The notes under the pieces: model-generated | The model's input: the letters and a program-made list of their open reading frames with translations, nothing else | Told to the model about the DNA's origin: nothing | Database searches by the model: none | Shown here: in pieces, positions 25,522 through 55,885 of the stretch | Layout: the number at the start of each line of letters is the position of its first letter | Numbering within the stretch: position 1 is the first letter of the stretch | Made by a program: the position numbers and the translations under genes | Source of the DNA: Membranipora membranacea | Taxonomy: Eukaryota > Bryozoa > Gymnolaemata > Cheilostomatida > Membraniporidae | NCBI GenBank assembly: GCA_914767715.1 | Contig: OU612069.1 | Location: 28,641,387-28,705,386, forward strand | DNA length: 64,000 nt | Direction of reading: 5' to 3'

Positions 25522-28414
25522 TCAGTCAACCCTAGTCATACCAACTCTGTGTACCTTACTGGCCAATCTCTGTGTGATGTCAGTTACTTTTCTCTTCTCT
25601 CTGCAGCTTCTATAGATCCTCAGGATGATGAACTCAATAAATTCATAAAACGTCAGGAAACTTGCTCCAACACATAAACCCAACGAACCTCCAAGGCTGG
25701 CTGAAATGAAATTATTCAAAGCACATTTCAACAATACTTTTTTATAGGGCTGCACATTATTCGCGTTATTTACCGCGATTAACCCAATCACTGTGTTCTA
25801 AAGATTAACGGCGATTATGGCATTTTAGTTGTGGGTTTTCAAGATCAAACAGTTCCCAGTATAATAGCCCATTCAACATGCTGTTAGGCATTGTTGCGGT
25901 TAATAAAGCCAACTTCACAGCCACAATTGTATGCATCTTATACATTACACTAATTTACCAGTTCATTGCCTGACGTTTGTTTACTTAACTGCATTTTATC
26001 AAGTGACTTTTGAGAAACAGGTCCACTCAGTACAATAGACTACTAGATAAGTTACAGCAGTTTTCTTTGTTGACACCCATGTTAGTATAATTCGAGTTGA
26101 AATGCCTTTAAATTGACACGTTTTACTACTGGAGAGTTTTCAGCCAATCAAATCCAGGGATCTAATGTGAGAAAGAAGAACAAAAAATAGTAGGAGTTGC
26201 ATATCTCTATTGATAGGGAAGATATGAGAAAACTATTGAGTGCTATCTCCTATAGCAGGCTACACTAAAGTAATGGACAATGGTAAAATTGATTGCAACC
26301 ATAGCTAGAGAAGTGGAAAGAAATTTCAGTAGTGTGTGAATTTACATGTATATATAGCTGTTCTGTGTTTTAGTTTTTAATATGAAGTTTAAATGTTTTT
26401 TAAACAACATACATGTAGTACAATGTAAATGAATAAATATACCAAATTAATAATAACAGTAATTACGGCTTATGATCCAGTTAAACCTTAGCGTATTATA
26501 CGAATTGACAGTCCCATACCCAAGATTAACTGACAAGATTAATCGAAGATTAACTGGAGAACTTGAAAAGATTAATCGAGATCAAAAATTTTAGTTGTGT
26601 GCAGCCCTACTTTTTTATATCATATATGGACCTTTGTTAAATTTTTGAAACAGAATTGAAACCAAATGAGCGCATTGAAGTTAAATGACATGTGTTTCAT
26701 GTTGGTTCCTTCTCTGTATATGAGTGTGACTTACATCTGAGTGTGACTTACATCTGAGTGTGACTTACATCTGAGTGTGACTTACATCTGAGTGTGACTT
26801 ACAAATGAGGGTGACTTACATATGAGAGTGACTAACTTATGAGAGTGACTAACTTATGAGAGTGACTTACATATGAGAGTGACTTATATATGAGGTTGAC
26901 TTACATATGAAGATGACTAACATATGAGGTTGACTTGCCTAATTTGATGATGACTAACATATGAATATTGATTACATATGAGAGTGACTTCATCGATGGC
27001 AGGCTCCTCCTCTATTCTCTGGTAGGACATCTTAGTATAATACAGATCTAGAACCACCATGTTCTTCTCCATGTAATCTAGAGATGCTGGTAAGATGGAG
27101 AAAGGTTTTAAAACAGTGTAAGAAGGGGCTGTTACATTAGAAGCTTAGAGAACAAAACTTAATACATGGTAAAAGTGATTTAAGACACACTTAAATACTT
27201 GTGGTAGTTTCACCTATCGCAACTAGCCAGAAGTCATATATATTTGGAGGATTACTCAAGTGTACTAGAAGTTAAAACACTGAAACCATAACTAGTGCCA
27301 AAATCTCAATTTTCTCTGAGAGATTTGGAGGTATTTAACACAATATATATGGAAAGTTGTTGATAACAGTGTTGTGAAGCGAAAGCTTTGCATATGCCAT
27401 ATGATTTAGTTCAATACAATAAAAACTGCTGCAATGGGCTTTTGGCCACTTCTCTGGACTTACCCAGGTTGGAGATATTTTGATACTTGATTACATTTTT
27501 ACTGGGAAACTTGTAGTTTGTTACAGACGCACTATACTGGGATTCAATACACGGATCAGCACATTGGCACTTTGCCAAACCTTCAGGATCGCTGAGAAAT
27601 ATCTCTATTGAATGAGTAAAAACACGGGAGTGAAGGCTACCCAAGGACCTAACTCCCATTCTATGCATTGTGATGTCACAGTCTGCCGGATGTGCAAAAC
27701 AATACGCAATCATTTCCGGGAGACTGTGTCAACACATCGCAGAGAAATGGAGTTACAGGTATCTAAATATTTTCAGAATTTTGCATGTGGTTTAGGCCAA
27801 TAAAATCACATCAATCACAATAATAAGGTTTATTAAAGACACAAGCTACGTTTTTTAATTGATTGTACAACTAAACGAATGCAGGGCTTCAAGCATATTT
27901 AACTTTACAGCATGAACAATTTCAGTGAAGATTCCTAAAAAGATAAATTCCACTGATCAACTGATTTTGGCTTATTTCTGAAACACAGCCTATTCGTAGT
28001 GTAATTTCAAAAACTAAATTTGTTTGAAACCAACATTAGTTGCCGGTTGCAAAAAAATGTCAACCTGTTGGGTAACATTACATAGTCCAATGCTATAAAG
28101 TATCACCATGATAATTGGCCATATAGCACACAATTTCCATAATATTTGATCAAATACAATATGATGATCATTGACTATAATCTCTGGATGACTTCTGTAG
28201 TTTTGTATACTTGGTGAAACTTACTCAAGGCAGGATGTGAGCAGCTGAGCATATCAGGTATCAGACAAAGATCTGTGTCATGTAAAGCTAAAGAAAAAAA
28301 TAATCTCATCAGTATATATATAAATATATATATATGTACACACATTTGTGCAATAAAGTGTCATATATTATATATCCCACTATTGTACCCATAAAAACCC
28401 TGGACAATGAGTCA

Positions 28415-28449
<35 letters not shown>

Positions 28450-31400
28450 GCTATCAGTGTGTAGGGCATATCTTTGCATTGGAGTTGTCCGACTATGTCA
28501 GGCTATTTTATCTACCATTAATTACTATTGGGTTAAGGATGCCCAGCATGAATATTTAAGAGGATTTAGGACATGATTTTTTTGTGGGTCATATAAAATG
28601 ACTCCTTACTTTTGAGTGACACTTAGTTGGGGCCAAATACACACAGATGACACTTAAAAGCACAGATTTAAACCTATATATATATATATAATGTATACAG
28701 ATAATGCCACAATTTATCCTTGAAGGCAGCTTTAAATAGATGAATAATTATATTTATCTACCATTAGATAGATGATATCAGTGGTAATCAAGAACACTAT
28801 TGAGCCAAGATGAGATTAAAGCATTTAAAGGTATAAACAATGTGTTGATGTGACACTGCACTAAGTAGGGACACAATGTAAACCCAGCATCAATAATACG
28901 CTGCAAAACCAATGTAGACTTGGCAACAAATTTGTGTGGCCTTGTGATGATCCTTATCCCGCTGCCTCAAAACTAATACGTTTTTGGACTTATGATGTGT
29001 ATATTCATCGAGACGGGGTTTGGTGAGGTAAAGAGTTTGGGGGCTCCGACTACTAGTATATAATCGTACCTGGCTGTAGCATCTCTCTACATCCACACTT
29101 GTTGATGACATAAGCAGTTTTACACTCCACTATACAGGCTGAGTGAGAGTAATTATCATAATAATAAAGAGGATTCTCCAGAACTTCAGTATCGAAACAG
29201 TTTGACATTCCTTCATCAGCAGGTGGAAGGTAGTGGTAAAACTGACAACATATAAAAAAGTTCAATGAAGATTTAGTTTGAATGATTGAGGTATATGTCC
29301 TGAATGGTTCTGGTCTCAGTGTTAGCCTGATCTGGTGTCGGTCTGATCTAGGCCCAACCATTGGCTCAGTTTCCTAATCAAAACCAAGAAATAAATACGG
29401 GTGACATCAACATTTTCATGGTTTTTGAGCAGACAAGTTCAGGTGTCAGTTCTGAGCAAAATATCTGAATGTGTGGGGCTTTCGAATAAAGGAGTGAAAT
29501 ACTGGACCTATGTTATTGAAGTACTTTGTTGTGGTGCACATGCAATCTACTCACTTTTAATAGATGTTTTTGATATGTCAACGAGACAAATTTGATGCAG
29601 GTATCTAGTTCTGGAGTTTTTACGATGTGTGTATCTCCCACTGGAATCACGCTTTCTTGTTCCAGGAATGATCAACTCAAAGTGTTTTCAGTGTCTTCTC
29701 ACAATTTTGGTTTGGTTTGGCCGAGGTTTGTTGGTTTGGCCCAATCGTGTTGCTTACAAAAAATGGAACAGCTTGCAAACAAAAAGTAAATTTAAACATA
29801 CAAACCTCTGATTTGCTTATTGCAAGACTGGTTTCGAATCCAGGAGCCACACCATAAGACAGTTCTGTGACTAAGGGTACCTCATGTGCTTCATGTAAAG
29901 CAATCTGTGGTGAGAAAAATCAATGATAGAATTACAGATCAATCAGCATTTGGTCACTTTTCGGAGTAATAACTATGCACATCAAACACATATAATACAT
30001 TATTATGAATGGGTGGCGTAATTAAAGATATTGTTGTAATGCAGAAGAGCTATATGTAAAAGAATTTTTTGACATTTTCATTTAAGCTATCATGATTTGC
30101 ATTTTATTTGCATGTACAATAATTTTGCTCAACACAAGAGAAGAATTAAAGTTCATCATCCTTAGCAGTCAGTGTATTGCAGTGTCGAGTTGCTCCGAAA
30201 ATTACCATTTTTGAATTAGAACAGATCTACTTACAGCGAACCCCTCAGATAGCGAGTAGGGGCCTGCCGTATACTCGTCAGCTTGCACATCCAGAATAAA
30301 CTGTATTCCTCCGCTCTTTCCTGGTGACTTAGCCTTAATATCACCATCGGAATTGAATTGGAAACAAAACCCTGCAGAGAGAAAAGTATTGTTATTATGT
30401 CATTTGACCTCGAACTGACTAAAAGGGAGTCACAAAATAATATATATGTATATATATATGTAAATAAAATGGTACCGAAAATAGGAAATCTGCCAATGAA
30501 GACTTTCCGCAGTCACTGCATGTATATGGCAGATCTTTCAGTAAGGTTTCTGTGAGATCTTTTATCAGATCTCTCTGTTATATGAGGTATCATTGGAACA
30601 AACATTGGTATTTTGTGAAATTGTCACAAAATTAAAATTTTGGTTGCTATCTTAAGGAAAATTCTTTTGGAAAAGTCAGCAGTGTAAATGCACCTTGAGC
30701 AATCACTATCAAATATATAATGGATTTATTGTTAATGGTCAGCGCAGGTATTCTTCCAAGTTCCAAGCAAGTCTCAAATTTTTCCAAGGTCAAGTTTTGA
30801 TCATGTGATCACTAGGTCTTTCCCTCAACCAGTGTTTTACAAAGTAGATAGGCATGTGATGGACAATAATAAAACCAAGGGCTATACTCTCGTCAAACAT
30901 GAGGCGATTACTACGAGTGTAGCTTGTATATAGCGCAATGTCGATATCAAGTTTTTTAAAACTGAACACTGTTGACTCAGACTACATTGAAAATTGACTT
31001 CTCACTAAATTAATAAAAATATCCTGTCTCCTTAACTACCTAGAAACCTGATCTACAAAAGCGTCAAACAAATATTACTTGAGTCAACTGAAAAAGCAGA
31101 CACCCCTCTGTGCATCTCCAAACTAAACACTTGGTCCCTTTAGTGTACTGAACTTCACTGTGGGGGGAAAAAGGTAACGGGGTAAAGAGGTTTGCATTTG
31201 AATCTATGGCTAAGGTAAGTCTTAGATTTGCGATGCCTCCTAGATTATCGAGCACTTTCAACATCTTGGGTGGGAAAGTGGTAGATAAAGGAATACTAAA
31301 ACCAGCACGATTTGTGAACTCAAACTAAGTGAGATCCCATGTCCATAGTAGTCACTTGCATTACCTTGATCAGTTGACACAACACTTATTATATCAATAC

Positions 31401-34400
31401 AGTTGACAGAGTGGTTCTCTATAAAACATCTGACAAATGTATCCTCTAGTTTATGAGCAGCGTCATGAAGGAAGATATCTGTGTCTTTATGCTCCATAGC
31501 AGCAATGGTAGCCAAATTAGGGTCAGATGTCCAATTGTATCTGCAGCGATAAAGAAGAGAATAAATCTATTTTCAAAATGCCAACATTTGAATGCATTCA
31601 GATACTGTCTGCTGAGAATTGGTCATAAAACGATATTCGTTGGGAATAGGTCATAATAACTATGTGGTTTGCAAATTCTGACTTGCTTAAACCATTAAAA
31701 GCACAAAACTTGACAGGGTTTATGATTTTAATTAGTATTTATAGTTTGATAGAAAAGTGAAAGCCACAATTAAAACACACGAGACTTTGTGTAACTCATT
31801 GTTTTGGAGCAATCATTAAGGAGTCAGATAGAGCCGATGCACGTGTCAGCGTCAGCACAATGTTACATACTATTGTGATATATAAGATGTTTACCTATTA
31901 AGGTAGCAATGTAATGCATTTCAGCTCCCAGTTATTGAGTTTCATGGCTTTGAACTATTAAAGAATACATAGGGCTGTTGATAGCGCTTGAAAACATTCA
32001 GGACATTGCATAACTTGCATAATCAATATCTAATTGAGAATTCTCTGAATGAGTCTTCATTTTCCATGTTGCAGAACAATTATACTGTCATTAAAATTTG
32101 CAGGATGTCTAGCCGAAACCTTATAACCTAAACGACATCCGGGAAGCAAAAACCGATTTAAGCAAGGAAAGATATCTCCTTGCCACAGATTTTCTATTAG
32201 CTATGATCTTCAGCCACCAGCACATTTATTATCTTACAAACCAAACTTGTTGTATGATTTTCAACAACAACAACATTATATTATGCAGCAATAAGCTGAG
32301 ATGACATAGATCACCTACTTTCCTTGTGGTGGAGAGAGGTCACCATTGAGTCCGTACAGGTCTTCGAATATGTCAAACAGTGCTCTGGTACCTAGTCTAT
32401 TACTTGTAGAGTTCATCTGACTGTATGTCCACATATTCTCATTGCACATAGTCACTGTTGGGAACTGAAATTAACACGTCCAGAGCAGCTAAAGAGATTG
32501 TTCAAACTAAGAGATGCTCAAGATCTTAAGATACGAAAATCTTGTTTGGAGTTTTGAGCTGTATTTTTTAATTGTTTGGCTCAGTGTTCTCTACAAGCCA
32601 TGTTTTATGTAATTAATAATAAGTATAGATACATTAAACATTGAAATTTCTTTATAATTAACTATTTTATTTTCCTGATTTCGATTTCAAGGTCATGAGA
32701 TTTCACAGCATGTAAAGCCTGGGGTGCTATATCTGGTGTGAAAGTCTCAGGTAGTGTATCCCTACACAGTGCTAACTTACCGGTAGTTCTGCAGCTCTCT
32801 TCACCTTAATCTTTGTAATGAGTTTTTTACCTGCATAGTGTTTGATCAGACCATATGACACAGAGCCAAAAAATATCAAAACTCCAAATATGAAGATGAA
32901 CCACAAAACTCTGTAACAGAGAAATGTCAAAATTATGAATTATGAGAAATGCCAAAATTATGAGAAATGTCAAAATTTTGAATACAATCCATGCTAATGA
33001 TTGCTTTTTTCAGTTCTCAAAATAATTAGTCTTTCCGACAAAAAACCATGTAACACAAATCATCTGAACAGGACAGAACAGAACTGGATAGTCAAACATA
33101 GAAATTTGATTTGATTACTGTTTGAGTTAAAGTTTACATATATCTGTTCTATATTCATTTTGTTGACCGCTATTTTAACTCACATTGACATCATAAATTA
33201 AAAGCTGTTGTGACATGAGACACAAAGACATTTTATCCAACACTCATGCTGCTTAAGGAAAGCGTTTCCGCTTCACGTTCATTCCATTTAGACAAGACTG
33301 TTATCAGCTCAGTTTATATTTATATCATTGGTTGTGAGTGCAATACAGGACAGTATAATTGTATATACACACCAATAAAGCTAGAGAAATTTACATGGAT
33401 ATGTTCAGGAAGGTGTAATAACTGTTGATAGCAAGCAGTTGCAACGGCATATAATAAAAATGTAACAGAATACAATGGAATAAAAAGATTTACATTGATC
33501 GAAGACCCCTTGCCTGCTTTTCTGAGTAAGAATTTTTTAATTCATTAGCTATTGGTTGTTTTCGTTGAAAGTCAAGCTAAATCATCATTTCAGTAAGGCG
33601 TTCAGATCAAGTTTAGTACAATTTATTTTGGGTCTTCAAAGTTCAAACAAAAGTTTCCATACACTTAATTTAGTTTTTTCCCCAAAGGGATTTCTAATAA
33701 AATACATTTTAAACATTTTGCCCAGGTACTAAGGCTTTTATAATCCGCTTTGAGGGGATGAGAGAGAACAAGTTTTAGATTTGAAAAATAATGGCTATAA
33801 AATATCTTTCGAAAGTGTTATTTGTCATGGCCTCTACTGCTGCCCTTCCCTTCATAAAAACCCCCAAAACAAGAACAGTATATGAACCTGGTAAACTTGG
33901 CATTGATTGGAGTTGGATGGGCCAACCCACATAGGGCTCAGCTGCCGTATAAGTTGTGTGAAGAGCCTATAAACATTTTTTTTGCATGTTTCGCAAAACT
34001 CGATAGTTCCAGCTCTTGTGTGAGACAGGCGTGGATTATTTTCAGTCAAGGATTGTAAAGTTACTATTGACCATTGATACCCAAGCCTAACAGGGAGCCT
34101 GTTTTGGCTAGATGCCCTCTCTGAAACATAAGCGATAACCCATAACCTTTCGAAATATATAGTGAGAATTCAACCCATCTAGTTCACACAATGACATATA
34201 CCCTAGTAATAGTTTGCTTTTTTGAACTTGGTCTGACATTTCGATGGTTGCAGTGACAAACAAATTTTCAAAGTAGGGCAGTGTCTAACAAGAGATTCAC
34301 TTGCATATTTTTCCACAGGCGCCATAATCCCGAGACCTGCTGGTGTGATTCAACTGAAATCAGGCTCCAACAGCGTAATTTATGCTACATGATGTAGTCA

Positions 34401-34557
34401 ATTGACAATGAAGATCATTTCTTAGTGAACAGACACTTACTAGAACTACTCACCTTCGAAGGACAGAGATAGTCTTGACATGCATGTAACGTACTCCATG
34501 CATCGTTGTTTCGTTGGCAAAGTCATCCCAATCAGCGGGCCCATTCAATGCTGCCAT
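25522..34557 (-). CDS. DEG/ENaC family sodium channel subunit, 11 exons
   Basis: Exons from the start: 34557-34454, 32910-32781, 32464-32319, 31540-31365, 30371-30235, 29904-29806, 29241-29070, 28287-28225, 27604-27464, 27086-26976 and 25700-25522. All junctions are GT-AG with matching phases, giving 485 residues. The N-terminus has the gating His-Gly motif (ETTMHGVRYM, about residues 17-26). TM1 follows (WFIFIFGVLIFFGSVSYGLI, about 38-57), then the post-TM1 motif FPTVTMCN (79-86). The cysteine-rich extracellular domain shows GFCFQFN (about 186-192), the PG...T block of exon 6, SACIVECKTAYVINKCGCRE (298-317) and KCQCADPC (354-361). TM2 contains GGSLGLCVGASFLTFYEF with the selectivity filter Gly-Ala-Ser at 438-440. 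These channels are trimeric, amiloride-type, cation channels opened by acid, peptides, force or constitutively; ligand cannot be told from sequence here. The last intron holds a hAT element and a splice-donor minisatellite. Confidence 0.95.
25737..26617. mobile_element. hAT-type non-autonomous transposon with 8-bp target duplication
   Basis: The element spans 25745-26609 (865 bp). It starts TAGGGCTGCACA and ends with the exact complement TGTGCAGCCCTA. It is flanked by perfect 8-bp direct repeats CTTTTTTA (25737-25744 and 26610-26617). End type and duplication length mark it as hAT. Motifs related to GATTAAC/GATTAATCG occur near both ends, as subterminal transposase sites would. No transposase frame is present. 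It lies in the final intron of the DEG/ENaC gene, 37 bp from the last exon. Confidence 0.9.
26720..26985 (-). repeat. 17-bp minisatellite built from the exon 10 splice donor
   Basis: About fourteen tandem copies of a 17-bp unit, on the - strand AGTCACTCTCATATGTA and variants. The genuine exon 10 end of the DEG/ENaC gene reads AAGTCACTCTCATAT followed by the donor GTAATC at 26975. The array therefore repeats the exon-intron junction itself into the intron. About eight copies carry GTAAGT, a closer match to the donor consensus than the real GTAATC. Reading on from the exon meets an in-frame TAG within the first few units. Confidence 0.85.
28418..28446. repeat. TA dinucleotide microsatellite
   Basis: An uninterrupted TA run in intron 7 of the DEG/ENaC gene. 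Shorter TA runs occur at about 28313-28335 and 28675-28690. Confidence 0.9.
31127..31324 (-). pseudogene. Relic of a duplicated DEG/ENaC exon inside intron 4
   Basis: The - strand reads FEFTNRAGF, then LDNLGGIANLRLTLAIDSNA and LFTPL. This parallels the real exon 5 (30371-30235): CFQFNSDG, then SGGIQFILDVQADEYTAGP. The glycine pair followed by an Ile/Leu-rich strand is the typical position after the CYxFN box in this family. It starts 40 nt after the exon 4 donor, after a possible acceptor CACTTAG. It is in the wrong phase for exon 4, lacks the Cys and is followed by a stop. It is probably a decayed alternative or duplicated exon. Confidence 0.5.
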
Positions 34558-35756
34558 AACTTACTACCTTTATTGCTAAACAAATCGAAATCCTAAATTC
34601 AAAAATGGATTATTCTGTAATGTAATACCTTATGTGCAGAGGTTCTTTAGTGTTAAGTGTGTGAAGCATTAAATTTAACTGGCTGAGCTTGTACAACTCA
34701 AGTTTAAATCATATTGATCAGAACTTGGTTTCGATGGCATTGTCCTACAACTAATTTGTATGTACAGAGAGTTTCTCCTGATACTTTTCGTTGTGAAGGT
34801 GCAACGACATATCATATGACACAGATAATTTCCATTCTATGATTTGAAAGTGGAGATGAAAGATTTAAAATTCACTAGCCTTGATTAGAGATTTCTGCAA
34901 AAATTTTGATAGTGACAATAATATTTCCTCTTTCTATAAATGTGTGCTATGATTTATGTGGTGGATAAACGGCTATACACGACAATAAATTGGAAAACAA
35001 ACTTTTGTCTCATAAAACAATAGCAGTAATGGCATATCATTTCATAATTCAATTTGTATGTTCTCCATTTAATAACAATAACACAAATTTCAAATGTTTA
35101 TATATGCTTAAAAATGTTTGTTATTAATGTTTGATGTCAAGAATCCTGTTCTGTAAAGTAAACTAATACAGTGGGCAGTTGTCTTATCGAACTAGATAGG
35201 CAATCACATATTAGTTCATCATTCGTTGCGTACTGTTGGTAATTCAAATTACAATGAATATGTTTCTATTTTATTTTGTCACATGTACAACGCTTAGAAA
35301 TCATTGTTTTTAAACAATTTTATTAAGCGCTTCATAAATAAACTTTATTATTATTATTATTACATGACAATGGAAATAAGCAGAAGAGTCATTACTAATT
35401 GATCCCTGTATTAAACTAATTGCACTCTTAGTCAACATAAATTAAACTCGCACGTCAAGCCAAATGTGGTAAATTTGATACAAATACCATAAAACACTGA
35501 TGGAAAAAAAACACATTTGAAATATTATGGAATCAACTGCCTTTTTAACTAACAAACCCAATAAAAAAGACATATCTTATGTCAAATTTTGGAGACTAGT
35601 TTACTTGGTTTTTCACAGTTTGATGCGACTTCCACAGAAAGCTGTCAAAGAGATTTCATCTAGAGAAACTCGAAAAAGACCAAAAACTTGCTGCCTGCGG
35701 ATTATTAATCAAGGCACGAAAGACTATGACAAGAGACTGACCAGTCTAAGCCTAAC
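34558..35756. other. 5' flank of the DEG/ENaC gene; no other gene seen
   Basis: AT-rich intergenic DNA with a short ATT microsatellite at about 35347-35363. I see no clear TATA box just upstream of the channel start codon. The + frame at 35527-35769 has no domain. Confidence 0.4.
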
Positions 35757-35884
35757 AGAGCTCTGTTAGAACAAGTTTAATCCAATTGCCTGCATTCCTT
35801 TTGCTCCCTTCTACTGCAGCGTGACCAGTGGATAGGGAGCGACTTGGAATGCAGGCAAATGGACCAAACTTGGTCTAGAGCTCT
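35757..35884. repeat. Small foldback, about 50-bp arms
   Basis: Arms begin AGAGCTCT at 35757-35764 and end AGAGCTCT at 35877-35884. They share CAAGTTT, TTGCCTGCATTCC and GCTCCC in inverted order with some mismatches, around a loop of roughly 25 bp. It is a hairpin-forming MITE-like or foldback sequence; no target duplication is obvious. Confidence 0.7.
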
Positions 35885-36429
35885 GTGGACACCTTGACTT
35901 ATTACAACTGTGGATCTTGAGCCATGGCAAAGATTATGGATAATATTAATATATCATGTAAAACAAAATGAAATTGTAGAGAACTAAGCAAAAGCAGACT
36001 GAGTGAGATGGAAAAGTAAATAGCTCCACGAGTGACCCAATATTTTCTGAACAGTGCAACGTATCGCAGAACTAAAAAATCTATACTTCCTTAGACCCCT
36101 GGTGGTCACATCGCGAGAATTGTATGATCAGTCATCAATGAGATAGGATATTCAGTGCTGATCGAGTGATTTTTCTTGATATGTCAAAGGAGCATCTCTG
36201 ACTGACAACTGGATTAATTGGGTCCAACATTACTTACTTTACACCCTATCTGACCTTTCTATTTCTATGGTTATTGTGTGAACAAAAGGCACAAAAATCA
36301 GTACTCAGTTCTCACAAGTTCCACTCACTTCTAACACTAGTCACAATAAACTAGTTAATAGTACTAAAAGTCCTCCCTGTTAGAAATTGATTGCAAAATC
36401 TATAGCATTGAAACCCTTTAATCATAATA

Positions 36430-36920
36430 CCTCAGCAAGAGCACCTACTTTGTTCTCACTTAGAAATCCTGGACTAACAGGCCCCTCGGTCCACTCATCC
36501 AGACCACCTCCACCACCAATTGCTGCTCCCACAACTACCACTACGAAAATGAGCCTAGTGCGGAGCTTTAGAGAAGACTCTGGCCTTCTTCTGGTAATCA
36601 ATTACACTATCTGACTTCTTCATATAATCCTTTACTCTGTCAGACTGAGATTGAGAGACGTGACAAACATCAAAGACTCTGACTCTGAATTGTGTGACTC
36701 TAACTTTGACTCTGACTGAGATTCGATAGACTTGACAGACATGTTTCTGACCTGCACTCTAACTCTGATACAGACATTGGATGCTCTGTTTCTGACCTGC
36801 ACTCTAACTCTGATACAGACATTGGATGCTCTGTTTCTGACCTGCACTCTAACTCTGATACAGACATTGGATGCTCTGTTTCTGACCTGCACTCTAACTC
36901 TGATACAGACAGTGGATGTG
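36430..36920 (-). pseudogene. Decayed relative of the TMEM272-like gene, with 45-bp in-frame repeat
   Basis: On the - strand an acceptor (TTATTAG) at 36921 opens a frame starting HPLSVSELECRSETEHPM. A 45-bp unit (15 residues, SVSELECRSETEHPM) is repeated about 3.5 times (36750-36911). After a frameshift come SVKSIESQSESKLESH and SESESLMFV. After another comes SQSDRVKDYMKKSDSVIDYQ and, in a third frame, a hydrophobic segment LIFVVVVVGAAIGG. The order matches exon 2 of the gene at 62550 (SVSELEYQSES, SGSIMYV, KSQSDEVKDHMKNSDRVMDYQ, KLTRLIIADVVMV). Three frame breaks indicate a pseudogene or an unfinished duplicate. Confidence 0.6.
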
Positions 36921-37207
36921 CTAATAAATATCAAGGTCGAGTAGTGATTAATACAATGTTACGGCTATGAGTGAGTCATGCTCAACTTTGAGAAAAAAAT
37001 AACTCAATCCTAGATCTAGATCCTGTATCCTGCTGTGCTAAAAGCATGACCAAATGGTCTGAAACGCTTGTTCTTTTTTATGGGGAGTTGCGGTAACCTT
37101 TGGGAAGAGTAGACAACTCCTAAAACACAGGGTTCATGTCACTATTATGGTAAATGCCTACCTCTAATTAGCCAAACAATCGCAAACAAGCTGAAACCTA
37201 TAGGAAC

Positions 37208-38691: not shown

Positions 38692-38693
<2 letters not shown>

Positions 38694-38722
<29 letters not shown>

Positions 38723-38723
38723 A
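38694..38723. repeat. GAT trinucleotide microsatellite
   Basis: About ten uninterrupted TGA/GAT units, 83 bp beyond the stop of the collagen-C4-like gene on its 3' side. Confidence 0.9.
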
Positions 38724-38805
38724 AAAGTTTTCGTTGGTCAAACAGGCACCTGCTGGTCACTGCTGTACATACACATGCTATCAGATGTCAGATTACTGAG
38801 CTTAT

Positions 38806-43828: not shown

Positions 43829-44139
43829 ATTGATGAGCCTGTCAGCAGAAGAAGACGAATATCCCACACAGAGTGATAACAGCTCTATCTACAGAGTGAT
43901 CACGGCTCTAACCCTACACTCAACTCACAACAGTGACCGATCATCAGACAAGATATTTATAATGTGCCACAAAAATATGACATTTCATGTGGTGGTATTT
44001 TTCCAGGTAAGTTAATTGTTTATCTATGGGCAAAGAACATCAAATCACCATATCCTGGATAACACAAGGTAATTAACAAGCAGGGTGTCAATGAAGTACC
44101 CATAAAAAGTTGATTACACCACTAGGAAATAAGGCTATG

Positions 44140-44295
44140 TTACTAATTGATATTATAATATTATTAGAAAGCACTTGCTACCTGTTGTCACCTGTATGTT
44201 TTACGTAGGTGTCAGGGTGTAGAGGTCAGTGTGAGGGTGTAGAGGTCGGTGTGATAGATATTAGTTACCAGGATATATCAGCTCACAGCTCTTTT
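44140..44295 (+). repeat. Dispersed inverted repeat, copy 1
   Basis: This block shares TTGATATTATAATATTATTA, GTGTCA, GGGTGTAGAGGTCA and TTAGTTACCAGGATATATCA with the reverse complement of 60420-60590 over about 155 bp. It also has an internal 22-24-bp duplication (GTGTAGAGGTC twice). Confidence 0.85.
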
Positions 44296-45178
44296 ATCTC
44301 CAGTATATATTATATTCATGTCAGCCTGACTAAAGTATCTCATTATCAAAATGTGATATGACGATCCCAACAAACAAGTAGTAAACATCATAACAAAGGT
44401 TCTCGTTATTGACAGTTTAATCCGTTTGGCATAATCTAGTTTGAAAGATATCAAAGTACTCTTGGCCTTGGACAATGAATCACTTGTTTGTCCTTTTGAG
44501 GTTGTAAAATTCATTAATTACCTTAATGAAAGTTAATACTGCCATAAAATGTAACATTTTTTGTTAGGAGCTAATTCAGATATGCTCATTATTCGGAATT
44601 GTTCCAAAGACCGATTATAATAAATTCATTCTCCCTCTAATTAGGCAAAAAAAACCTTTGCCTTTTCTTAGAAATGTCTCATGATGAATTTCTCTTCTAC
44701 CTCCGAATCTTACTTCCTGTTCTAATGAAGCGTATTCGGTGAAAAACATTTTATTTTTAAATTCTGGTGTGCCATAAGGTGGCAATAAAAGACAAACTTG
44801 TCAGAATTATCTCACATCTCAATTATATCATTGCAATTATGTATTAGCCAGGCATGCATGGAGGTATTTGGCGCAGAGATACCATATGATCCTGCATGGG
44901 GCTACTTGAGAAGTCAGCTTGTGCAGCAAGGCAAGCCGAACATGTGGGCATCTATTTTCTGAAGTGGACTTGCGGTTTTCTGGTCTACCTTCTTTTTGTT
45001 CTAATTTTTAACCTTTTTATTTTTCAGAATTTGGTTTTGAGATTTCCTTGATGAAACACAAGCTCAAAACTGTAAATAATAGAAAATTTCTGTTCACTTG
45101 ATTACCTCTCAATATTCAAATGGATTACTTTAGATGGCTGAAATTTTGTGAAACTTGTTCAGCATTGATATTTGAAAA

Positions 45179-45208
45179 ATCCACATAACAGTGACCTGTT
45201 ATGTGGAT
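45179..45208. repeat. Perfect 13-bp-arm palindrome
   Basis: ATCCACATAACAG and its complement CTGTTATGTGGAT are separated by TGAC. It could be a hairpin or a dimer-binding site; no gene start is close. Confidence 0.8.
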
Positions 45209-46867
45209 TTACTAAAGGCAGTTCCTACTAAAAGCATAACTGCACTGCCTTTCACTCTACCTGACTACTCTAAAGAAGTTGCTAGCTTGTTTTCTCAATC
45301 AACTTCAGATTATTTAACAAAGTTTGAAGTTGTCTTCTGTCTAACAGTAAGTGGGCAACTCCTAAAATGAGCGGACTTGTCATTTTATGGCTCACTTAAT
45401 TCAATTATTTATGTAACACTGAATGTCTGTTGATGCCGATCTCCAGGAGGACATGTTAGCTGGTGCAGGGCTAGTAGTGAGCTCGTACATGTTTACATAA
45501 GAACATTACATCGACATGTTTCCCGAACACTACGAGTAATTTCTGCTGGTTTTCCAGAAAAGAGGATAATGGGAAGGATATGTATTTAGCGCTGCAGACA
45601 AATGCAGTCATAGCTTCATGAAGCTACTCATGGACTAAATAATACATGTACTATCACGCAATCTCAGTATGCTATAAATAAGCTTATCTCAATATGCATC
45701 CAGTGATGATGATGAGCCATTATGTGAATTATTGAGAAGGCACTGAGCACTGAGAACGATTATAAGAGGTCAGCCATTATGAATGGAACAGTGAAAAAGT
45801 TCAGTGAACTGTAGATTTTAAATCCGATATCATCAGAGGGCCTCTTATTGTTGGTCATGGATTTTGGAGACGCTCCATTCAAATATCTGTCGCACTATGA
45901 ATTTCATTTGTATAGAGACACACCCATCTATGGCAGGCTTTTAAACTGCTGCAATCATCTAAACTTCAATCTGTTTAAAATTATCAAAACTATGTGTCAA
46001 TCTCAGTTGTATTAGGATTTTGATTGTTGATAGCTACTGTATATCCCCAACAGAAGTATACAAGCTTCTTTGACCTCATACATTATTCTTGAATATTTAG
46101 GTGATATTTGAGGTGATTCAGATCTCAGTAAGATTAAAAAGAATACCAGATTACCATATACCAGGTAATTCTGGGATAGAAATATGTCTGATTGCCGATG
46201 ACTATTACAATAAATGAACCAATGTGCATTTTTTGGGGAACATACAGTCATTTTGGACTGCTAATACTGCTGCCAATAAACTGCCTATATTATCCGCCAT
46301 CGTGAGTCTCGATGGGCAAAAAATATTCCATTAGCAGATTTGATTTCACACATGTTGCTTAATTCTTCGTAACCTCTAAGATTAGATCTCACACCCCTAG
46401 CACTTTAACTGCTGCATATCTCGTTATCAGTGAGAGTAGGGGGCTGTCAGTGTGATGGACACTCCTACAAATCACTTCTCATATCACGATAACAAAAGTA
46501 TCAGCTGACCAGCCGCCTGTGAGTGAGACATATTAGGGAGGGACGTATTAGTAAGCGACAGGCGATGGATGGCACTACAGTCGACAGCTTCCCATCATAC
46601 ACAGTCTACATTACAATAACTAACCTCTCATTGACAACAAAATACATCCGCAGCCTTCACTCAGAACTTTTATTCTTGTGAAGTGGATTAGTGAATACAT
46701 AGAGGGGAATCCATACAGCTCCACAGCGGATAACGACTGTGTATATTACAGTAGCAGTGTAATATACTCCTGAGTACTCTACTGTCTCACCTAGTAGTAC
46801 AGTACCTGTTACTGAAGAGCAGCGGACGTCACAACTGTCTCATCTAATCTAATCCCTTTCTGCGACT

Positions 46868-46875
46868 TATATAAG
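46868..46875 (+). promoter_or_regulatory. TATA box of the SLC16-like gene
   Basis: TATATAAG lies 62 bp upstream of the start codon at 46930, in a locally GC-richer context (GCGAGGCGG follows). Transcription would begin near 46900, giving a 5' leader of about 30 nt. This is position- and motif-based inference. Confidence 0.6.
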
Positions 46876-46929
46876 CGAGGCGGTCCGATACCATTAGAGC
46901 TTTCAAATCGAAAATAGAGAAAGATCATC

Positions 46930-49900
46930 ATGAATGCGCCGATGGAAGATAGAAAGTTTCTTGAAGATGAAGAAAAAACGTTCGACAACTCAAATGAAGA
47001 GACACCTACTAACTCAGGTATTGGTTAGTATAGTGGTGTAATATGGATGAGCTCGGCCAGTAATCTCTGATGGAAATATCAAGTTAAAAAAAGAACTCTC
47101 TTACTGGTCAGCCTACTGATTTTATGCCTGGATTTAAGCGACTGCTCAGTCTTAGCCTTGCTGAGCTCAGAAGGTCAAAGCTTACTGATTACCTTCAATA
47201 CAGTCATGAGGGGGGGGGGGCACACCACTTAATCTTATTAATAGAATAAATTGTCCTTCCTAATACTACTGCTAACATTCACAAAATTGCAATTGATCCT
47301 TCACTGGTGACAATATTGTCCACTGCGGTGTTCATAACGACTCGGGGAGATATGAGATATATCCCGTCATAACGACTCGGGGAGAATATGAGATTTATTC
47401 CGTCATAACGACTCGGGGAGAATATGAGATTTATCTCGGATACTCACACTATGTTTATGTTTACGTTTATTACTTAATGCTTAAAATACTTTAATTTCTA
47501 GAAAAACTAAAAACTCATTTATATTCTCTATATTTTCTTACTCAGATTATAGTACTGTGGAGACAGTCAGCTTGAAGAGAGGATCAAATAAAGATAGAGG
47601 ATACGCCTGGGTGGTGCTTACAGCTAGCTTCTTATGTCAGGTAAGATACCGCCCACCTGCTGACACCTGCTGACACCTGTCCGTTATCATTCACGCGATA
47701 CTATTAATAGCACTAACAGTAAGTTATGTCTCCTATCTGCTCATGGGAGGTTCCCATGGTCTTCTTGTGACTTAACTTGTATGTGTGGATCCTGGATAAA
47801 AGCAATTTCCACCTGACACGAGGGAGAAAAAGTCCTTGGGGAGGGGGATTCGCCGTTCACTTTCCCACAAACATCAAAAAGCAAAAAATCAATGGAGTTT
47901 AATACTAAACCAGACTGAGCGACAGATTTGTATCAACATGTTTGGGTGGACGGCGAAGTTTTGTTTATAGTATTCAACTCACAGGTGTTTTAATTCGAAT
48001 TTTGCTCATACGTAGAGTGCATTTAAATTCCAGTGACATAACAGAAGATAATAATTGAGAAAACTATAAACATACTACAAATACAAGCGTAAACACTGCA
48101 GACCCTCAAAAGTTCACGCGACCTTCATCAGTAGATTTAGGGGATTTAGCGGATTGATGTGGATTGCCTCACACTGTTGCTGTAATACAGTGACAGGTTA
48201 TGTTGATGGGTGGTATGGCCCATGTCAGAATTTTGCACAAAAGGTTAACAACATTATTTCCAAAAAGTCTGTTTTTGGAATCAATAACTACCATCATGTT
48301 CTAAGAGGAACTTTGCTTATATGAGAATAACAGCCGCCATTACTCTCTGCTCACACGTACCAACAGGCTATCTGTCTAGAGTTGTCTAACTTGTGTAAAG
48401 TAAAAGACAACTCCCAAAGGCGAAGTAGGTGATAATGTAATATCAGGGAGTTTAGGACATTTATATCCCAGACTCCTGATAATATTCACTGCTACATGAT
48501 ATGTAAAACTATTAAATATATACTGTGTAATGCATTCACGATGTATTATCTCTCACTACTGAGGCTTTTATTTAAAGGTGATTCATAACTAAAGCTCAGT
48601 ACTACCATTCTCCCTGGTACTACTGTAATGGTTCCTACAAGCCTTTGACCCACCAGATTACTCATTGAGGGGTTCGGTGACCCCTAGTGACCTGCTGTTG
48701 CTGACTATGATAACAATAGATATCAAGCAGCAGCAGCTGTGACCGATTCAGTCTGAGGAGATTACGCTTTCACACCTCCACGCTACTGTACTTGTCCAAC
48801 ATTCAGAAATGTCGCTGATCGATCAGTCACTGACCGACATCAGAATAAGGATCAGTGACTGCCTGTTATGTAAATCAATTATACAATTTAATAATTTCAA
48901 AATGGCAAGCGTACATTGAAATGTAAGGCAAACTCATGATTTCTTAAGTTAGTAATAAATCAGTAAACAGAATATTCACATCCCTCAGGACACTGACCTC
49001 TCCATGAGTTCAGATCACTGACCTCTCTAAAAGTCTTAGTCACCTGTTTGATATAATCTTAGCTAATATCTATTAAACTGACCTCAAGTAGGCTGGTCAC
49101 GCAGCTATTTTTTTATTTAGGGACCCTGGTATTGACCCTTGGTATTAAATTGACCTGATCTGTCGGGCAATTCCTCAAACAGATAATAGTATGGTTGATG
49201 GAGCATTCCAAACAAAAGTTGCATTGTGCGACTTTTATGCCTTCAGCTGTTATTTAAAGTCTGAGCTCCTATTTGTAGTCTGAACTCCTATTTATAGCCC
49301 GAGCTCCTATTTACAGTCTGTTTACTGAATGGTAACACAAATTTATTGCATTTTATTGCATGAGAAAACCGCGTTATCTCCCACGTCCAACAATAAGGTC
49401 AGTGTGGCAGCCTCATAGAGAAGATTTAATTTCCAAATTGCCGATGTGCATCTGATCATATCAGGTTTGGTTTTTAACAATTGAAACTGACCTATCCTTG
49501 ATGAAATAAGGTTTGCTTCTGAAGGCGAAATGTGAATAGGGCGTTTTCCTTTTTTGTGGCACTATAACTGCAGTGTAGAGACAATAGCATCGTATCGAGT
49601 GATTTTACATGTAGTGTGCTCGGATTTTTTAAACAGCTCCCTCACCTATGCATGACCTTGTACTGTTGATGAGTGCAGATAATTGGACCAAGACATTCCC
49701 AAAACTAACACAAAACAAGATAATGAAGGACATCGCTTAACGTAATGAGGTCGTAATTAAAGCTGAAATTAGTTTGATTTCTCCATTATTGAAAAAGAGA
49801 TGGCCTCAATTAGGAACTAAGTTGCTTCATGACCAACTCAAGCAGTTTATATCTAACTTGGAAGTTTTATGATGAAAAGTCAGTATAACTATTGGAATTG

Positions 49901-52900
49901 TCTGTTCCTTCGTTTGAGGCCTGGTTTACCATCTAGAATACAGACCCAAAACACCAACCGACTAAAACTTTGCCCTACCCTTGCTGGATAACTAACATAG
50001 CAATGCCGACATGACTGTAGATATATAGTCTGAAAATACAAACAGCACACAACAAAAAATGTTGTTATTATTATACATCACATTTTTATTCCGATTGTTT
50101 TTTTGTTTTTATTCCTTTGCACATCAGGGACAACATCTTCGGATGATGGTTGTTGCAATAAAAGTTTATATATATATATATATACAGGGTGCAGTCTGTG
50201 ACATTGCACACTTTTCAATTTCTATTTCATCACTTTAGTGACTGCAGTTTTTTGAACTTCTAATCACTTCAGTTATGTCTAGAGATTGTAAACGCTGTCG
50301 GCAAATGCAGTCGACTTTATTGGTCAGTTTAATTGGCCAATTTTATTGGTCATTTTTACTGCCGAACATTAGCAAGTTTACTATTATCGGTCATCAAATT
50401 TTTTAATATCGGTCATTAGAGGAAATTTCAGACAGTGTTGCATAACAGTTTGACTTTGTGACATGATATTACCTTGAATTATTCTTGGTGGTTTCTTGCA
50501 GAGCTATCATAAATGCTCATCACTCAGTACAGCAATGTTTAGTCTGAGTCTTGCTGATGTAGGTTAACCGGCCAGAGTTTCATCCCATTTATTGGCCACC
50601 TCCCCATGAGATTCAGCAATAAGAATTTGCGGGTGATAATAAAATGTACCACCAGGTAGACTTTTATTAACTTTAGACCGGTCCTGGTGGGAAATTTATG
50701 ATGATAAGTTCTGAAATGGAATGATATTTTATAATCAAAATGGGTGGCCAGATCCTTTGGTCCTGGAGTGCAGATGAAAACTCAGACTCTGCGGAAATAC
50801 TTTTAACTATAAACGCAGCATCCAAACCTCGTAACTCTCTAGTTTTATTGATTTATATTCCAGTTGAGTATCTCTCTGTGTTGGGTGACAGCTGGCCCAA
50901 CACTAAAACTTGTTGCAATACAACTTAACATATCAATGATCAATATGAGCTGTTAGGGGCGCTAATCTCATGTGTGGTCCCATTTCTAAACACTGTAAGC
51001 TCAGGGGTCATCTCCTCTGATACAAAGGGAAGATAATTCTCATCACTATGTGCTCTGTTTAGCTACGAGCTCATGGTTCTCACTCACCTGGTCCTTAGTG
51101 TGATGAGGATAGTGGTATGGGACTTAAGTCAGAACAGGTGGTTGAGAACACGAACCACTTGTCAAATTAGATCAATGATTGCACTGGGAAGACTTTTAGT
51201 TTAGGATTTTGGGGTGATTGAAATAAGACGCTCTTATTTATAATTTATTTTGTATTTTTTTGGCATCACAGACCAAAACAACAATGAATTTTATCAAGTA
51301 TTGATAACAATACAATATACATACATACATACATTGTTTTGGTATGATTGTATTGAGTTGCCAGGGTGAATCCCTCTTGATGAGAAGAGGAATCTGACCA
51401 ATGACCTTGCAAATGATAATCACAGCTGTGATAGATTGAAGATTGAGATTAATATTATTCTTGGGCTGGCTTTTTTTTTCAATTGTGTCAATGTCATTTA
51501 CTTTCTGATCCAAGCTGTAATTCATGACTGATCTAACTTTAGGACCTGGTATTAATTCTTTTCAAAGAACCAAACTAAAGAAAACACTTATTTTTGTTTG
51601 TAGGTGGTGGGTGTTGGCTCTGCACTATCTAATGGAGCGTTTACTCCGACTCTACTTCGGAAGTATGGAGGTGATCGGGAGGCTGTCGCTTGGATCGGAT
51701 CCATCCACGCTGGTACTGTTTTCATGGCAGGTCGGTAATCAGTCAATCCTCTTTGGTGGGTCCTCAAATTATGCTCCAATACTCTAAATCAAAACTTTTA
51801 TGTTTTTGCTAAGGTGTTGTCAATGGGTTGTCTACGATAGATTTGCAGTTGCAGTTGGAGGCAACATTTATTGGCTAGGAGTGGTTTCAATAAGAATACA
51901 AATAAGTTGCGTAAAAACTAATAGTAAGCTGCTTCTTGTCAAGTTTTTAGCCAGCTCTAATCCAAGTTTCACTAGCTCGGGCCAGCTTGCAGACAAGGTA
52001 GATTAATATTCTTTGTAAAAAACTGGCAGATCTATGCATAGAAATTAACCAGAGCTCTCTTTTAGCAGATAGGTATCTAATTGAACCTATAAATGTATAT
52101 CACCATTTAATAGTTTGTATATTACTCTAGGACCTGTAGCTGGCATGCTCACAGACAGATTCGGACATAGAGTAGTGATTATGTGTGGAGCTTTACTAGC
52201 TAGTAGTGGAGTTCTACTCAGTGCCTTCGCTACTAAAATATGGATCCTTTACATCACCTACGGAATCATGGGAGGTGAGCTCTTATATCATAGTGCTGAT
52301 TCCTTGAGGGTTCTATAACAGCACCCAGTAATATGTGGTATGAGACTTTGTTGTGCTAACAATAATTATAGAACAGTTGCTAGTGCTCCAGTTGCTATGA
52401 AGCCTATTAGGAATGATGTAAAAATATCGCCAAACAATTCAGATGGAAGCACTGGTAGTAGTTGTAACAGCAAGACATTTACACTTAATCTTCTCATCGG
52501 CCATGCTGGTACTTTGTAAAACTGCTAATAATCAGGTTGATCGTCACTTCCATTTACAGGTGTAGGGATATGTTTCACCTACATACCATCTGTGACCGTG
52601 TTAGCTAACTACTTTGATCGATGGAGGCATGTAGCCTTTGCTGCTAGCGCTGCTGGTACAGGGATTGGTACGCTGCTGATGCCTCAATTTGTACAAGTAC
52701 TACTCAACCATTACGGACTACAGAGCGCCTACATCCTCACAGCAGGTTAGTACTACTCAATCATTACGGGCTACAGAGCGCCTACATGCTAACTGCAGGT
52801 TAGTACTACTCAACCATTACGGGCTACAAAGCGCGTACATCCTCACAGCAGGTTAGTACTACTCAATCATTACGGGCTACAGAGCGCCTACATCCTCAAG

Positions 52901-55885
52901 GCAGGTTAGTACTACTCAATCATTACGGGCTACAGAGCACCTACATCCTCACGGCAGGTTAGTACTACTCAATCATTACGGGCTACAGAGCGCCTACATC
53001 CTCACGGCAGGTTGGTACTACTCAATCATCACGGACTACAGAGCGCCTACATCCTTACGGCAGGTTAGTACTACTCAATCATTACGGGCTACAGAACGCC
53101 TACATCCTTACGGCAGGTTAGTACTACTCAATCATTACGGGCTTCAGAGCGCGTACATCCTCATGGCAGGTTAGTACTACTCAATCATTACGGGCTACAG
53201 AGCGCGTACATCCCCACGGCAGGTTAGTACTACTCAATCATTACGGGCTACAGAGCACCTACATCCTCACGGCAGGTTAGTACTACTCAATCATTACGGG
53301 CTACAGAGCGCCTACATCCTCACAGCAGGTTAGTACTACTCAATCATTACGGGCTACAGAGCGCGTACATCCTCATGGCAGGTTAGTACTACTCAATCAT
53401 TACGGGCTACAGAGCGCGTACATCCCCACGGCAGGTTAGTACTACTCAATCATTACGGGCTACAGAGCACCTACATCCTCACGGCAGGTTAGTACTACTC
53501 AATCATTACGGGCTACAGAGCACCTACATCCTTACGGCAGGTTAGTACTACTCAATCATTACGGGCTACAGAGCGCGTACATCCTCATGGCAGGTTAGTA
53601 CTACTCAATCATTACGGGCTACAGAGCACCTACATCCTCACGGCAGGTTAGTACTACTCAATCATTACGGGCTACAGAGTGCGTGCATCCTCATGGCAGG
53701 TTAGTACTACTCAATCATTACGGGCTACAGAGCGCGTACATCCCCACGGCAGGTTAGTACTACTCAATCATTACGGGCTACAGAGCACCTACATCCTCAC
53801 GGCAGGTTAGTACTACTCAATCATTACGGGCTACATAGCACCTACATCCTTACGGCAGGTTAGTACTACTCAATCATTACGGGCTACAGAGCGCCTACAT
53901 CCTTACCGCAGGTTAGTACTACTCAATCATTACGGGCTACAGAGCGCCTACATCCTTACCGCAGGTTAGTGCTACTCAATCATTACGGGCTACAGAGCGC
54001 CTACATCCTTACCGCAGGTTAGTACTACTCAATCATTACGGGCTACAGAGCGCCTACATCCTTACCGCAGGTTAGTACTACTCAATCATTACGGGCTTCA
54101 GAGCGCCTACATCCTTACGGCAGGTTAGTACTACTCAATCACTATGGGCTAATTGCAATAAGATTGAGCAACACATTAATGATAAAATCCAAAAATCTTG
54201 TTACTGGGAGTAAAGAAGTTGTCCTGCCTTGTACCATGGTAGGATAACTCAGGTAAAAATACCATCATTACAAATTGTACATGAAAGAGCTTACCTTTCA
54301 TTAGTGCGATTCCTATATAATGAGAATTTTGTCATTTTAGTCATATATATGTATAGTTCAAGAATAATCGCGACCCGGTATCAAGTTATGACTGCACCTT
54401 CGTTCGATGTTAGTGTTTATATCAAAACAAGAACAAAGGGTGAGAATCAACATCTTCTACCAACTATTAACAGCTAATTTTCATATTTTTACAGCTGTTT
54501 TGCTGCAGATGGTAGTATATGGAGCTTTGATCCGGCCTCAAACCACACAACATACAGAAACAGGCGAGCCAACCCACAAAATATCCCTCAAACAAGAGCT
54601 ATCCATTCTCACTGACTGGAGATTTGACCTTTTTGTTATGAACAATTATCTGTTTAACTTTGGTAGTCTCATCATATTTGTGTTTATCTCAGACTATGCC
54701 GTGGTCCGAGGTACAACTAGTGGACAGGGAATGTCCCTTATCTCAATCGTTGGGATAAGTAATGCCGTCGGTAGAGTCTTCAATACTCTGCTCTCACTAT
54801 GCAAGATAGTTAACCGCACCCCCATATACATCATATCCTGTACTCTGAGTGGTGTATCTATCTGTCTGCTCACTGTCAGTCCCGCCCATTCCCCCTTTCC
54901 TCTCCTTGTGACGTTCTGTGCTCTGTATGGGGTTCTGTTCGGGGTACAGCTCGGTAATCTAGCCATAGTCACTAACAGACTCGCCGGTGTAGAGAGACTG
55001 AACACAGCTTACGGACTGGTGATGCTTCTAAACGGAGCTGGAGCAGCTACTGGACCTCCCTGTGCAGGTAAATATCACTCAGACTATTTATAACTGTGCA
55101 GGTAAATATCACTCAGACTATATATAAATGTGTAGGTAAATAGTACTCAGACTATATATAAATGTGTAGGTAAATAGTACTCAGACTATATATAAATGTG
55201 TAGGTAAATAGTACTCAGACTATTTATAACTGTGCAGGTAAATATCAATCATACTTTTTATGAGCTGCCTTTTAATCCGGTCATCACTGTAAGTTTAAGC
55301 TCTCCAGTAATGGGTGGGACGTTGTTGAATACAAGGACTAGCAATGTGATGGATGTTTTTGATAATTAGAATGCCACCCGCAGCAACCCAGGCGGAGTTC
55401 TGGCTTTTAATCTACATTGTCGTAAAATAAGAAGTAGTTGATGGTAGCTCAAAATTATAACGATGCCATGCAAAGCTCTTGAAGTTAGCTCAGACTGACT
55501 GAAGTAGGAATAGCGAGTACAAATTTCATTCTATGGCTTTGAATATTGTTTGTATAGCTTATATTCCCGTAACATTGTTGTGATTGCAGGTTTCCTGTAC
55601 AAGATATCCGGGAGTTACGAGCTCGCATTCTACGTGGGAGGCGGGGCTACTATACTGGCCGGTCTGATTATGATTCCAATTATGTTTATCAAGAAAAAAC
55701 CACTGCAGCCCCTAAACCAATCTATAGTCGCTGCCCAGCCTTCTGTGGACGGTAACATCGGAGGATTGACTGTTCCTGATATACAAAACATGGGAAGTCG
55801 AATAATAGCGTCATTGTCTCGATTGAATGAAACAGACTCGGAATATGATAAACGTGAAATGAAAGAGTTATGTAGCGATGCATAG
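46930..55885 (+). CDS. SLC16/monocarboxylate-transporter-like MFS protein, 7 exons
   Basis: Exons 46930-47017, 47546-47640, 51604-51730, 52131-52274, 52560-52745, 54495-55067 and 55590-55885 join with consistent phases to 502 residues ending in TAG. The first SLC16 signature appears before TM1 as DRGYAWVV (46-53). GPVAGMLTDRFGHRVVIMCG gives the TM2-TM3 loop. The second signature is NYFDRWRHVAFAASAAGTGI (168-187) in TM5. A hydrophilic loop separates the two six-helix halves (about 222-255), followed by TM7-TM12 with VGISNAVGRV and YGLVMLLNGAGAATGPPCAG. Both termini are cytosolic. The family moves monocarboxylates, thyroid hormones, aromatic amino acids or related organic acids across the plasma membrane, often with a proton; the substrate is not predictable. 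Intron 5 and intron 6 each start with a tandem array of the splice donor. A decayed partial copy lies at 57.3-60.0 kb. Confidence 0.95.
47332..47440. repeat. Three-copy 43-bp tandem repeat in intron 1
   Basis: Three copies of a unit beginning CATAACGACTCGGGGAGA and containing ATATGAGATTTAT. A run of ten or so G residues precedes at about 47211-47220. Confidence 0.8.
48810..51560 (+). repeat. Duplicated segment, copy 1 (intron 2 of the SLC16-like gene)
   Basis: Most of this 2.7-kb stretch of intron 2 has a diverged, direct-orientation counterpart at 57335-59760. Shared landmarks in the same order: GATCAGTCACTGACCGACAT, TAATAAATCAGTAAACAGAA, GAGAAAACCGC, ATTGCCGATGTGCA, GATGAGTGCAGATAATT and CAACTTAACATATC. 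No coding exon lies inside. Confidence 0.85.
52746..54150 (+). repeat. 53-bp minisatellite copying the exon 5 end with its splice donor
   Basis: About 26 head-to-tail units of 53 bp starting at the first base of intron 5. Each unit is GTTA followed by a near copy of the last 49 nt of exon 5 (GTACTACTCAA...GCGCCTACATCC...GCAG), so each again ends at a GCAG/GTTAGT donor. Units are very similar (mostly C/T and G/A variants such as GCGCC/GCACC/GCGCG), pointing to recent expansion or homogenisation. Reading through the first junction gives an immediate in-frame TAG, so downstream donors would truncate the transporter. Confidence 0.92.
55068..55250 (+). repeat. 34-bp minisatellite starting at the exon 6 splice donor
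   Basis: Five and a half units of 34 bp. Each starts GTAAATA and ends TGTGCAG or TGTGTAG. The final seven bases copy the end of exon 6 (TGTGCAG), so each unit recreates an exon end plus donor. Confidence 0.9.

Follow-up and report, generated by a model that had tools for sequence, protein, structure and literature searches.

Minisatellites whose unit joins the end of a coding exon to the first bases of the following intron, so that the 5' splice site is repeated with every copy, occur in the bryozoan Membranipora membranacea. We think it likely that they are minisatellites of the type called 'mirages' in amphioxus: the donor is duplicated in tandem, the first donor is used, the copies exchange sequence with the exon, and arrays of this kind are in excess at donors. 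Three of them, A1, A2 and A3, lie in the window, by which we mean the whole 64-kb stretch analysed here (chromosome 5, 28,641,387-28,705,386, in the 339.3-Mb assembly).

Homology and Pfam confirmed that the three arrays sit in two unrelated genes on opposite strands, a DEG/ENaC gene (minus) and an MFS/SLC16-like transporter gene (plus). Gene structures were built by hand and comprise 10 DEG/ENaC exons and 5 SLC16-like exons; the DEG/ENaC model possibly lacks its start, and the SLC16-like model lacks the first exons. The best protein match came from Watersipora subatra, which is a bryozoan too. The alignment of the SLC16-like gene with a Watersipora MCT3-like protein (55% identity) was gapless over both array junctions of this gene, and that of the DEG/ENaC gene with its single database match (42% identity) was gapless over the A1 junction. 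Because the protein alignments run without gaps over all three junctions, the exon ends in our models (26976, minus; 52745 and 55067, plus) are fixed, and the exon ends claimed in the earlier note are consistent with this homology.

Table. Arrays and flanking exons in the window (window positions), and exon-anchored arrays elsewhere in the genome. A slash marks the exon-intron junction.
Feature	Position	Strand	Basis
Array A1, 17-bp unit, 15.9 copies; copy 1 formed by the final 15-17 exon bases	26718..26990	minus	TRF, sequence
DEG/ENaC exon; its 3' end (26976) forms copy 1 of A1; donor GT 26975-26974	26976..27086	minus	Exon model, gapless protein alignment, Pfam ASC weak (E=0.032)
Next DEG/ENaC exon; acceptor 25701, ~1 kb past A1	25522..25700	minus	Exon model, Pfam ASC
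Array A2, 53-bp unit (50 exon bases + GTT), 27.5 copies	52696..54151	plus	TRF, unit list
SLC16-like exon; its final 50 bases form copy 1 of A2; donor CAG/GTTAGT at 52746	52561..52745	plus	Gapless alignment, Watersipora MCT3-like
Next SLC16-like exon; ordinary acceptor ~340 bp past A2; its final 7-8 bases form copy 1 of A3; donor CAG/GTAAAT at 55068	54495..55067	plus	Exon model, homology
Array A3, 34-bp unit (7-8 exon + 26-27 intron bases), 5.7 copies	55061..55255	plus	TRF, sequence
Last SLC16-like exon; acceptor outside A3	55590..55885	plus	Exon model, homology
Exon-anchored arrays, AGGTAAGT set (8 of 17): L030, L032, L034, L035, L038 (two arrays), L040, L041			
Exon-anchored arrays, AGGTGAGT set: L047, L048, L050			

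All three arrays, with the unit lengths first given for them, were recovered by TRF. The first intron base had been taken as their start, but copy 1 is exonic: it begins 15-17 bases before the donor in A1, 50 in A2 and 7-8 in A3. Each unit spans the donor, and in A2 the intronic part is 3 of 53 bases. The statement that every unit recreates a donor was correct for A2, where 27/27 complete units end in CAGGTT, and for A3, where 6/6 carry AGGTAAAT, but in A1 it applies to 13/15 units, those that begin with GT after the exonic copy (by eye). The first donor of A1, CATAT/GTAATC, is also the weakest among the 13 window donors by our own weight matrix. The acceptors of all three array introns are ordinary, pyrimidine-rich and at least 196 bp past the arrays. 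No gradient of exon likeness was seen along A2, where copies other than the exon-adjacent one resemble the exon most; A2 thus shows no sign of simple outgrowth from the edge of the exon. Units and exon shares differ among the three arrays, which lie in two different genes; this supports the proposal that they originated independently.

To count such arrays genome-wide, we searched for the donor word AGGTAAGT three times over, with copies 8-38 bases apart. This returned 424 matches in the whole genome versus 79 for the same word backwards. Triple matches pile up inside arrays, and distinct families were therefore counted instead, on chromosomes C1-C3 (AGGTAAGT covered to C3:34.6 of 35.0 Mb). 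There were 17 families for AGGTAAGT, with a dispersed 31-bp satellite taken once, and 7 for a second donor word, AGGTGAGT, with a dispersed 17-bp family taken once. The control words TGAATGGA and ATGAGAGT had 0 and 3 families on C1-C3 (5 and 7 genome-wide, A1 itself being among the 7), and the acceptor control TTTTGCAG had 1 (3 genome-wide). Word frequencies were taken from both strands of 200 kb of random sequence, in which AGGTAAGT occurred 12 times, AGGTGAGT 9, TGAATGGA 10, ATGAGAGT 13 and TTTTGCAG 20. Per occurrence, the 24 families of the two donor words against 4 for the three controls represent a ~12-fold excess (24/28, P=1.1e-8), the P values of this comparison taking as exact frequencies that rest on 9-20 occurrences per word. 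The excess was 10-fold without dispersed and very short-period donor families (20/24), and 5.6-fold when the donor count was limited to arrays with a demonstrated coding exon end at their start (11/15, P=0.0016). Against the two neutral words alone the excess was ~9-fold, and against the acceptor word 23-fold, with only three control words in all counted as families. Backward words gave match totals, not array counts, of 197 for TGAGAGTA, 76 for GACGTTTT (these two being the backward words of two control words) and 16 for TGAGTGGA; such totals alone are misleading as a measure of arrays. These results support, with few control words, the view that donor-containing arrays are commoner in this genome than tolerance alone predicts; by extrapolation, the genome perhaps holds hundreds.

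Two satellites stood out during the search. One is a long, nearly uniform 44-bp satellite of ~70 units (G000:C9:24093577-24096708). The other is the AGGTAAGT-containing 31-bp satellite, which is found at nine places within 0.8 Mb (G000:C1:33.57-34.38 Mb); its inspected copy (L033) is not at an exon.

We inspected 23 arrays by sequence. From the first places listed for each word, these comprised all 17 AGGTAAGT families, at 16 loci of which two were extended, and 6 out of 8 AGGTGAGT families; two AGGTGAGT families on C2 (periods 9 and 11) and all control arrays were left out. In 11 of the 23, a coding exon end is copy 1. L038 has two arrays, after two exons ~1.1 kb apart. L032 and L047 are IP3-receptor exons on the same strand, 10.6 kb apart, and PDB alignments reach the last codon before each donor. 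The exon calls at L034 (Csf1/BLTP1), L040 (DUF4149), L041 (EGF) and L048 (PHD) are supported by Pfam matches that were weak and all below curated cut-offs. Exon calls at L030, L035, L038 and L050 were made from open frames and our own reading, and a PDB search with the L035 exon gave no match.

Nine arrays were not at a visible exon end (L029, L031, L033, L036, L037, L043/L045, L049, L051, L052). Three more were not counted as exon-anchored: L039, where a possible micro-exon precedes the array, L042, where the array begins 17 bp inside the intron, and L044/L046, where the array start was not reached. On the other strand, the 45-bp array at L045:1419-1801 (C3:33.776 Mb) ends ~35 bp before a sequence that, by eye, resembles the acceptor of an exon with ankyrin repeats.

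All 14 exon-anchored arrays (A1-A3 and the 11 inspected ones) span the boundary with several copies of a 14-53 bp unit. The exon share of the unit ranges from 4/28 to 50/53; breakpoints therefore vary with the donor always inside, which for the two word searches is partly by design. The 14 arrays lie in ~11 genes, with two each in the SLC16-like gene, the IP3 receptor and the L038 gene if paired exons share a gene. At least three two-array genes among 11 would have p=0.004-0.08, assuming that 0.3-1% of donors have an array; with these rates assumed and the window picked post hoc, the clustering of arrays in certain genes is a hint only.

Junctions were also compared directly, a junction repeat being a junction-spanning 16-mer that recurs with at least 13/16 matches within 120 bp. 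In the window introns, junction repeats were present at 3/13 donors and 0/13 acceptors. Random positions in those 13 introns, about one fifth of which is array, scored in 10% of cases. In 200 kb of random genome sequence with 131 predicted (noisy) exons, one donor and one acceptor matched, neither of them an array, and 37/4000 random positions scored. From these exon counts, donor-spanning arrays are rare per exon, and the window is a local extreme that was picked post hoc.

An automated search for arrays starting at donors in the 200 kb and the window found A2, A3 and L010:7702-8083, and missed A1. L010:7702-8083 was rejected, as it is inside a long open frame. L009:3700-3834 (position 3771) was not counted because the donor is absent from the unit; there, the last 9 bases of an exon that by eye resembles a voltage-gated sodium channel reappear in an array of 10-bp units, ~10 bp downstream of the exon end.

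These counts bear on the strongest rival, in which ordinary minisatellites combine with tolerance: duplications would arise anywhere, and those at donors would be harmless since the first donor works, with no donor-specific process. The earlier note had left the choice between a process that duplicates donor sites and such tolerance. Tolerance would fit the rarity of arrays per exon in random sequence. It would also fit the anchored half of the AGGTAAGT arrays: by eye, ~5-7 of the 12 AGGTAAGT words in random sequence resemble real donors, and since about half of these words are donor-like anyway, 8/17 is not itself an excess and the argument is carried by the excess over control words. Those control words are few, and the word frequencies are imprecise. 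However, tolerance alone predicts no excess, yet one was found over both the neutral words and the acceptor word, and the two arrays in 3 of ~11 genes, at the rates assumed above, are a hint against it. An excess over neutral DNA is left without a reason if tolerance acts alone, and the idea of a process therefore gains support, from few control words. We regard tolerance alone as a doubtful account of the whole.

The intronic copies were then compared with the exons that they repeat. The synonymous test covered 10 of the 14 arrays (all except L041, L047, L048 and L050), with distinct variants of the exonic part taken as independent. In the exon frame, 30/62 variants in intronic copies were synonymous versus 18.6 expected (p=0.0017). 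After removal of variants identical to the present exon, 24/55 were synonymous versus 15.4 expected (p=0.009). No synonymous excess was seen in the shifted frames (15/65, 16.5 expected; 10/67, 18.3 expected). The main contributors were A2 (12/21) and L038b (8/14). When seven arrays had been analysed before, under a stricter threshold for copies, the count was 24/43 versus 12.5 (p=0.0001), and all differences between exon and intronic consensus in that run (6/6) were synonymous. Given the synonymous excess, sequence probably passes between the array and the coding copy. Intronic copies may have derived over time from the coding copy, or may sometimes have moved into it by unequal exchange; by either route they would have been filtered by selection on the protein.

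We propose that the founding event was a short tandem duplication covering the exon end and the 5' splice site, and that the unit then multiplied via slippage or unequal exchange. Splicing would stay on the first, original donor, so that the array would be handled as intron and leave the mRNA as it was, and the acceptor would be ordinary sequence outside the array. Since the coding copy would be copy 1 and would exchange with the others, the intronic copies would be stamped by selection on the exon. The likeliest causes of the donor excess would be that duplications are commoner at donors or that the conserved exon copy keeps arrays recognisable for longer. A bolder reading, which we offer only tentatively, is that active 5' splice sites are germline hot spots of tandem duplication, mainly in certain genes and caused, for instance, by transcription- or splicing-linked breaks, with the coding exon end as the lasting, selected source of an intronic array that turns over. 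If so, the arrays would be a fossil record of the exon's past synonymous states and a standing supply of alternative donors.

The use of the first donor was considered from the reading frames. In 10 of the 14 exon-anchored arrays, a stop-free in-frame extension is possible from no later donor. In A1, use of a single later donor (+54) would lengthen the protein in frame by 18 residues (by eye); reading through the first donor leads to TAG immediately in A2 and to TAA after 23 bases in A3. A later donor would permit in-frame extension in L047, L048 and L050 (units 24, 18 and 39 bp). Unit length is divisible by three in 3/14 arrays, which is unremarkable. The idea that only the first donor is productive thus appears compatible with most arrays. 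At L047:772-890 (IP3-receptor exon) and L048:821-948 (PHD-like exon), later donors would yield in-frame protein repeats.

Alternatively, the extra donors might be used or bound, as AG/GT mini-introns, in stepwise recursive splicing, or as U1 sites aiding exon definition or regulation. GT is kept in nearly all units, and AG directly precedes every GT in A2 (CAG/GTTAGT) and A3 (YAG/GTAAAT), so that whatever a later donor keeps in the transcript could still be removed by a further splice. However, A1 has AT/GT instead of AG/GT, at 14-53 nt the units would make short introns (those measured here are 286-1749 nt), and the conservation of the donor bases in A2 is not significantly above that of the other unit positions (rank 9/53). 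We therefore consider such use improbable.

It is more improbable still that the duplications created the introns, by tandem genomic duplication with AG/GT at both ends. The AG/GT in A2 and A3 units would suit this, and mirages have been proposed as a route of intron gain (PMC3087553), but the distant, ordinary acceptors of all three introns speak against it. An assembly artefact, with repeats collapsed or expanded, is hardly credible: tandem arrays are error-prone and copy numbers may be wrong, but long PacBio reads underlie the assembly (PMC10290214), units differ by point changes, and the same build recurs at many separate loci.

The arrays had been thought to belong to no named class, which is wrong. 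Mirages are described as minisatellite-like tandem repeats across exon-intron boundaries in amphioxus Adh3 and the globins BflGb6 and BflGb9, many units having AG/GT splice signals and those of Adh3 being 10-72 bp long (PMC3087553). According to the same account, both 5' and 3' boundaries are affected, RT-PCR suggests regular splicing despite the arrays, length and somatic instability occur, and the origin is termed unclear. With boundary-spanning, minisatellite-sized units, the bryozoan arrays are of the mirage kind by anatomy. They differ in that amphioxus mirages affect both boundary types in few genes, as described there, whereas here they have so far been seen only at donor junctions, the acceptor evidence being 0/13 in the window and the three families genome-wide of one acceptor word. 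The human CBS 31-bp VNTR, c.1444_1467+7(16_21), also has the same build: by its name, the unit has 24 bases of exon and 7 of intron and is present in 16-21 copies (PMC2630376), and it is listed under exon 13-intron 13 (PMC1395315). Its unit likewise consists of an exon end and the first intron bases, but it concerns one gene, is polymorphic in people and is linked to enzyme activity.

Two other systems are similar in part. In intron gain by tandem genomic duplication, AGGT-containing exon ends are duplicated in tandem (PMC3443670), but the duplicate supplies both donor and acceptor of the new intron, whereas the bryozoan acceptors are outside the arrays. Boundary repeats in human segmental duplications are minisatellites with a mean unit of ~30 bp and can alter splicing at boundaries; unlike the arrays here, they are in recent paralogues, with half in coding exons and variable in mRNA (PMC2812944). 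Our literature search, which did not include the original mirage papers, found no report from bryozoans, of a genome-wide donor excess or of a coding imprint. The phylum, the donor excess and the coding imprint are new here.

Until now, mirages were a curiosity of a few amphioxus genes. A genome rich in donor-spanning arrays makes their cause testable, that is, whether donors attract duplication, whether acceptors are spared, and how exon and array exchange sequence. It also provides a natural test of how a spliceosome settles on the first donor when up to 27 nearly identical ones follow each other, and the arrays bear on early steps of intron growth and gain.

Other repeats were noticed in the window. 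An 18-bp x 2.4 duplication (32938-32981) lies in the pyrimidine tract just 5' of the acceptor of the first recovered DEG/ENaC exon, and an RVT_1-like fragment (24601-24831, minus; E=0.0086, under the cut-off) lies in or near the 3' side of this gene. At 13860-18566, two subrepeat-rich ends ~4 kb apart form an inverted pair with 16-, 20- and 59/79-bp subrepeats; the arms are up to 87% complementary and resemble DNA transposon ends. Inverted ~140-bp copies at 44151-44289 and 60426-60567 are 89-94% complementary, with a 20-bp unit duplicated within each. Elsewhere, at L025, two 52-bp duplications (5849-5948 and 6068-6175) are mutual reverse complements in a large hairpin-like element.
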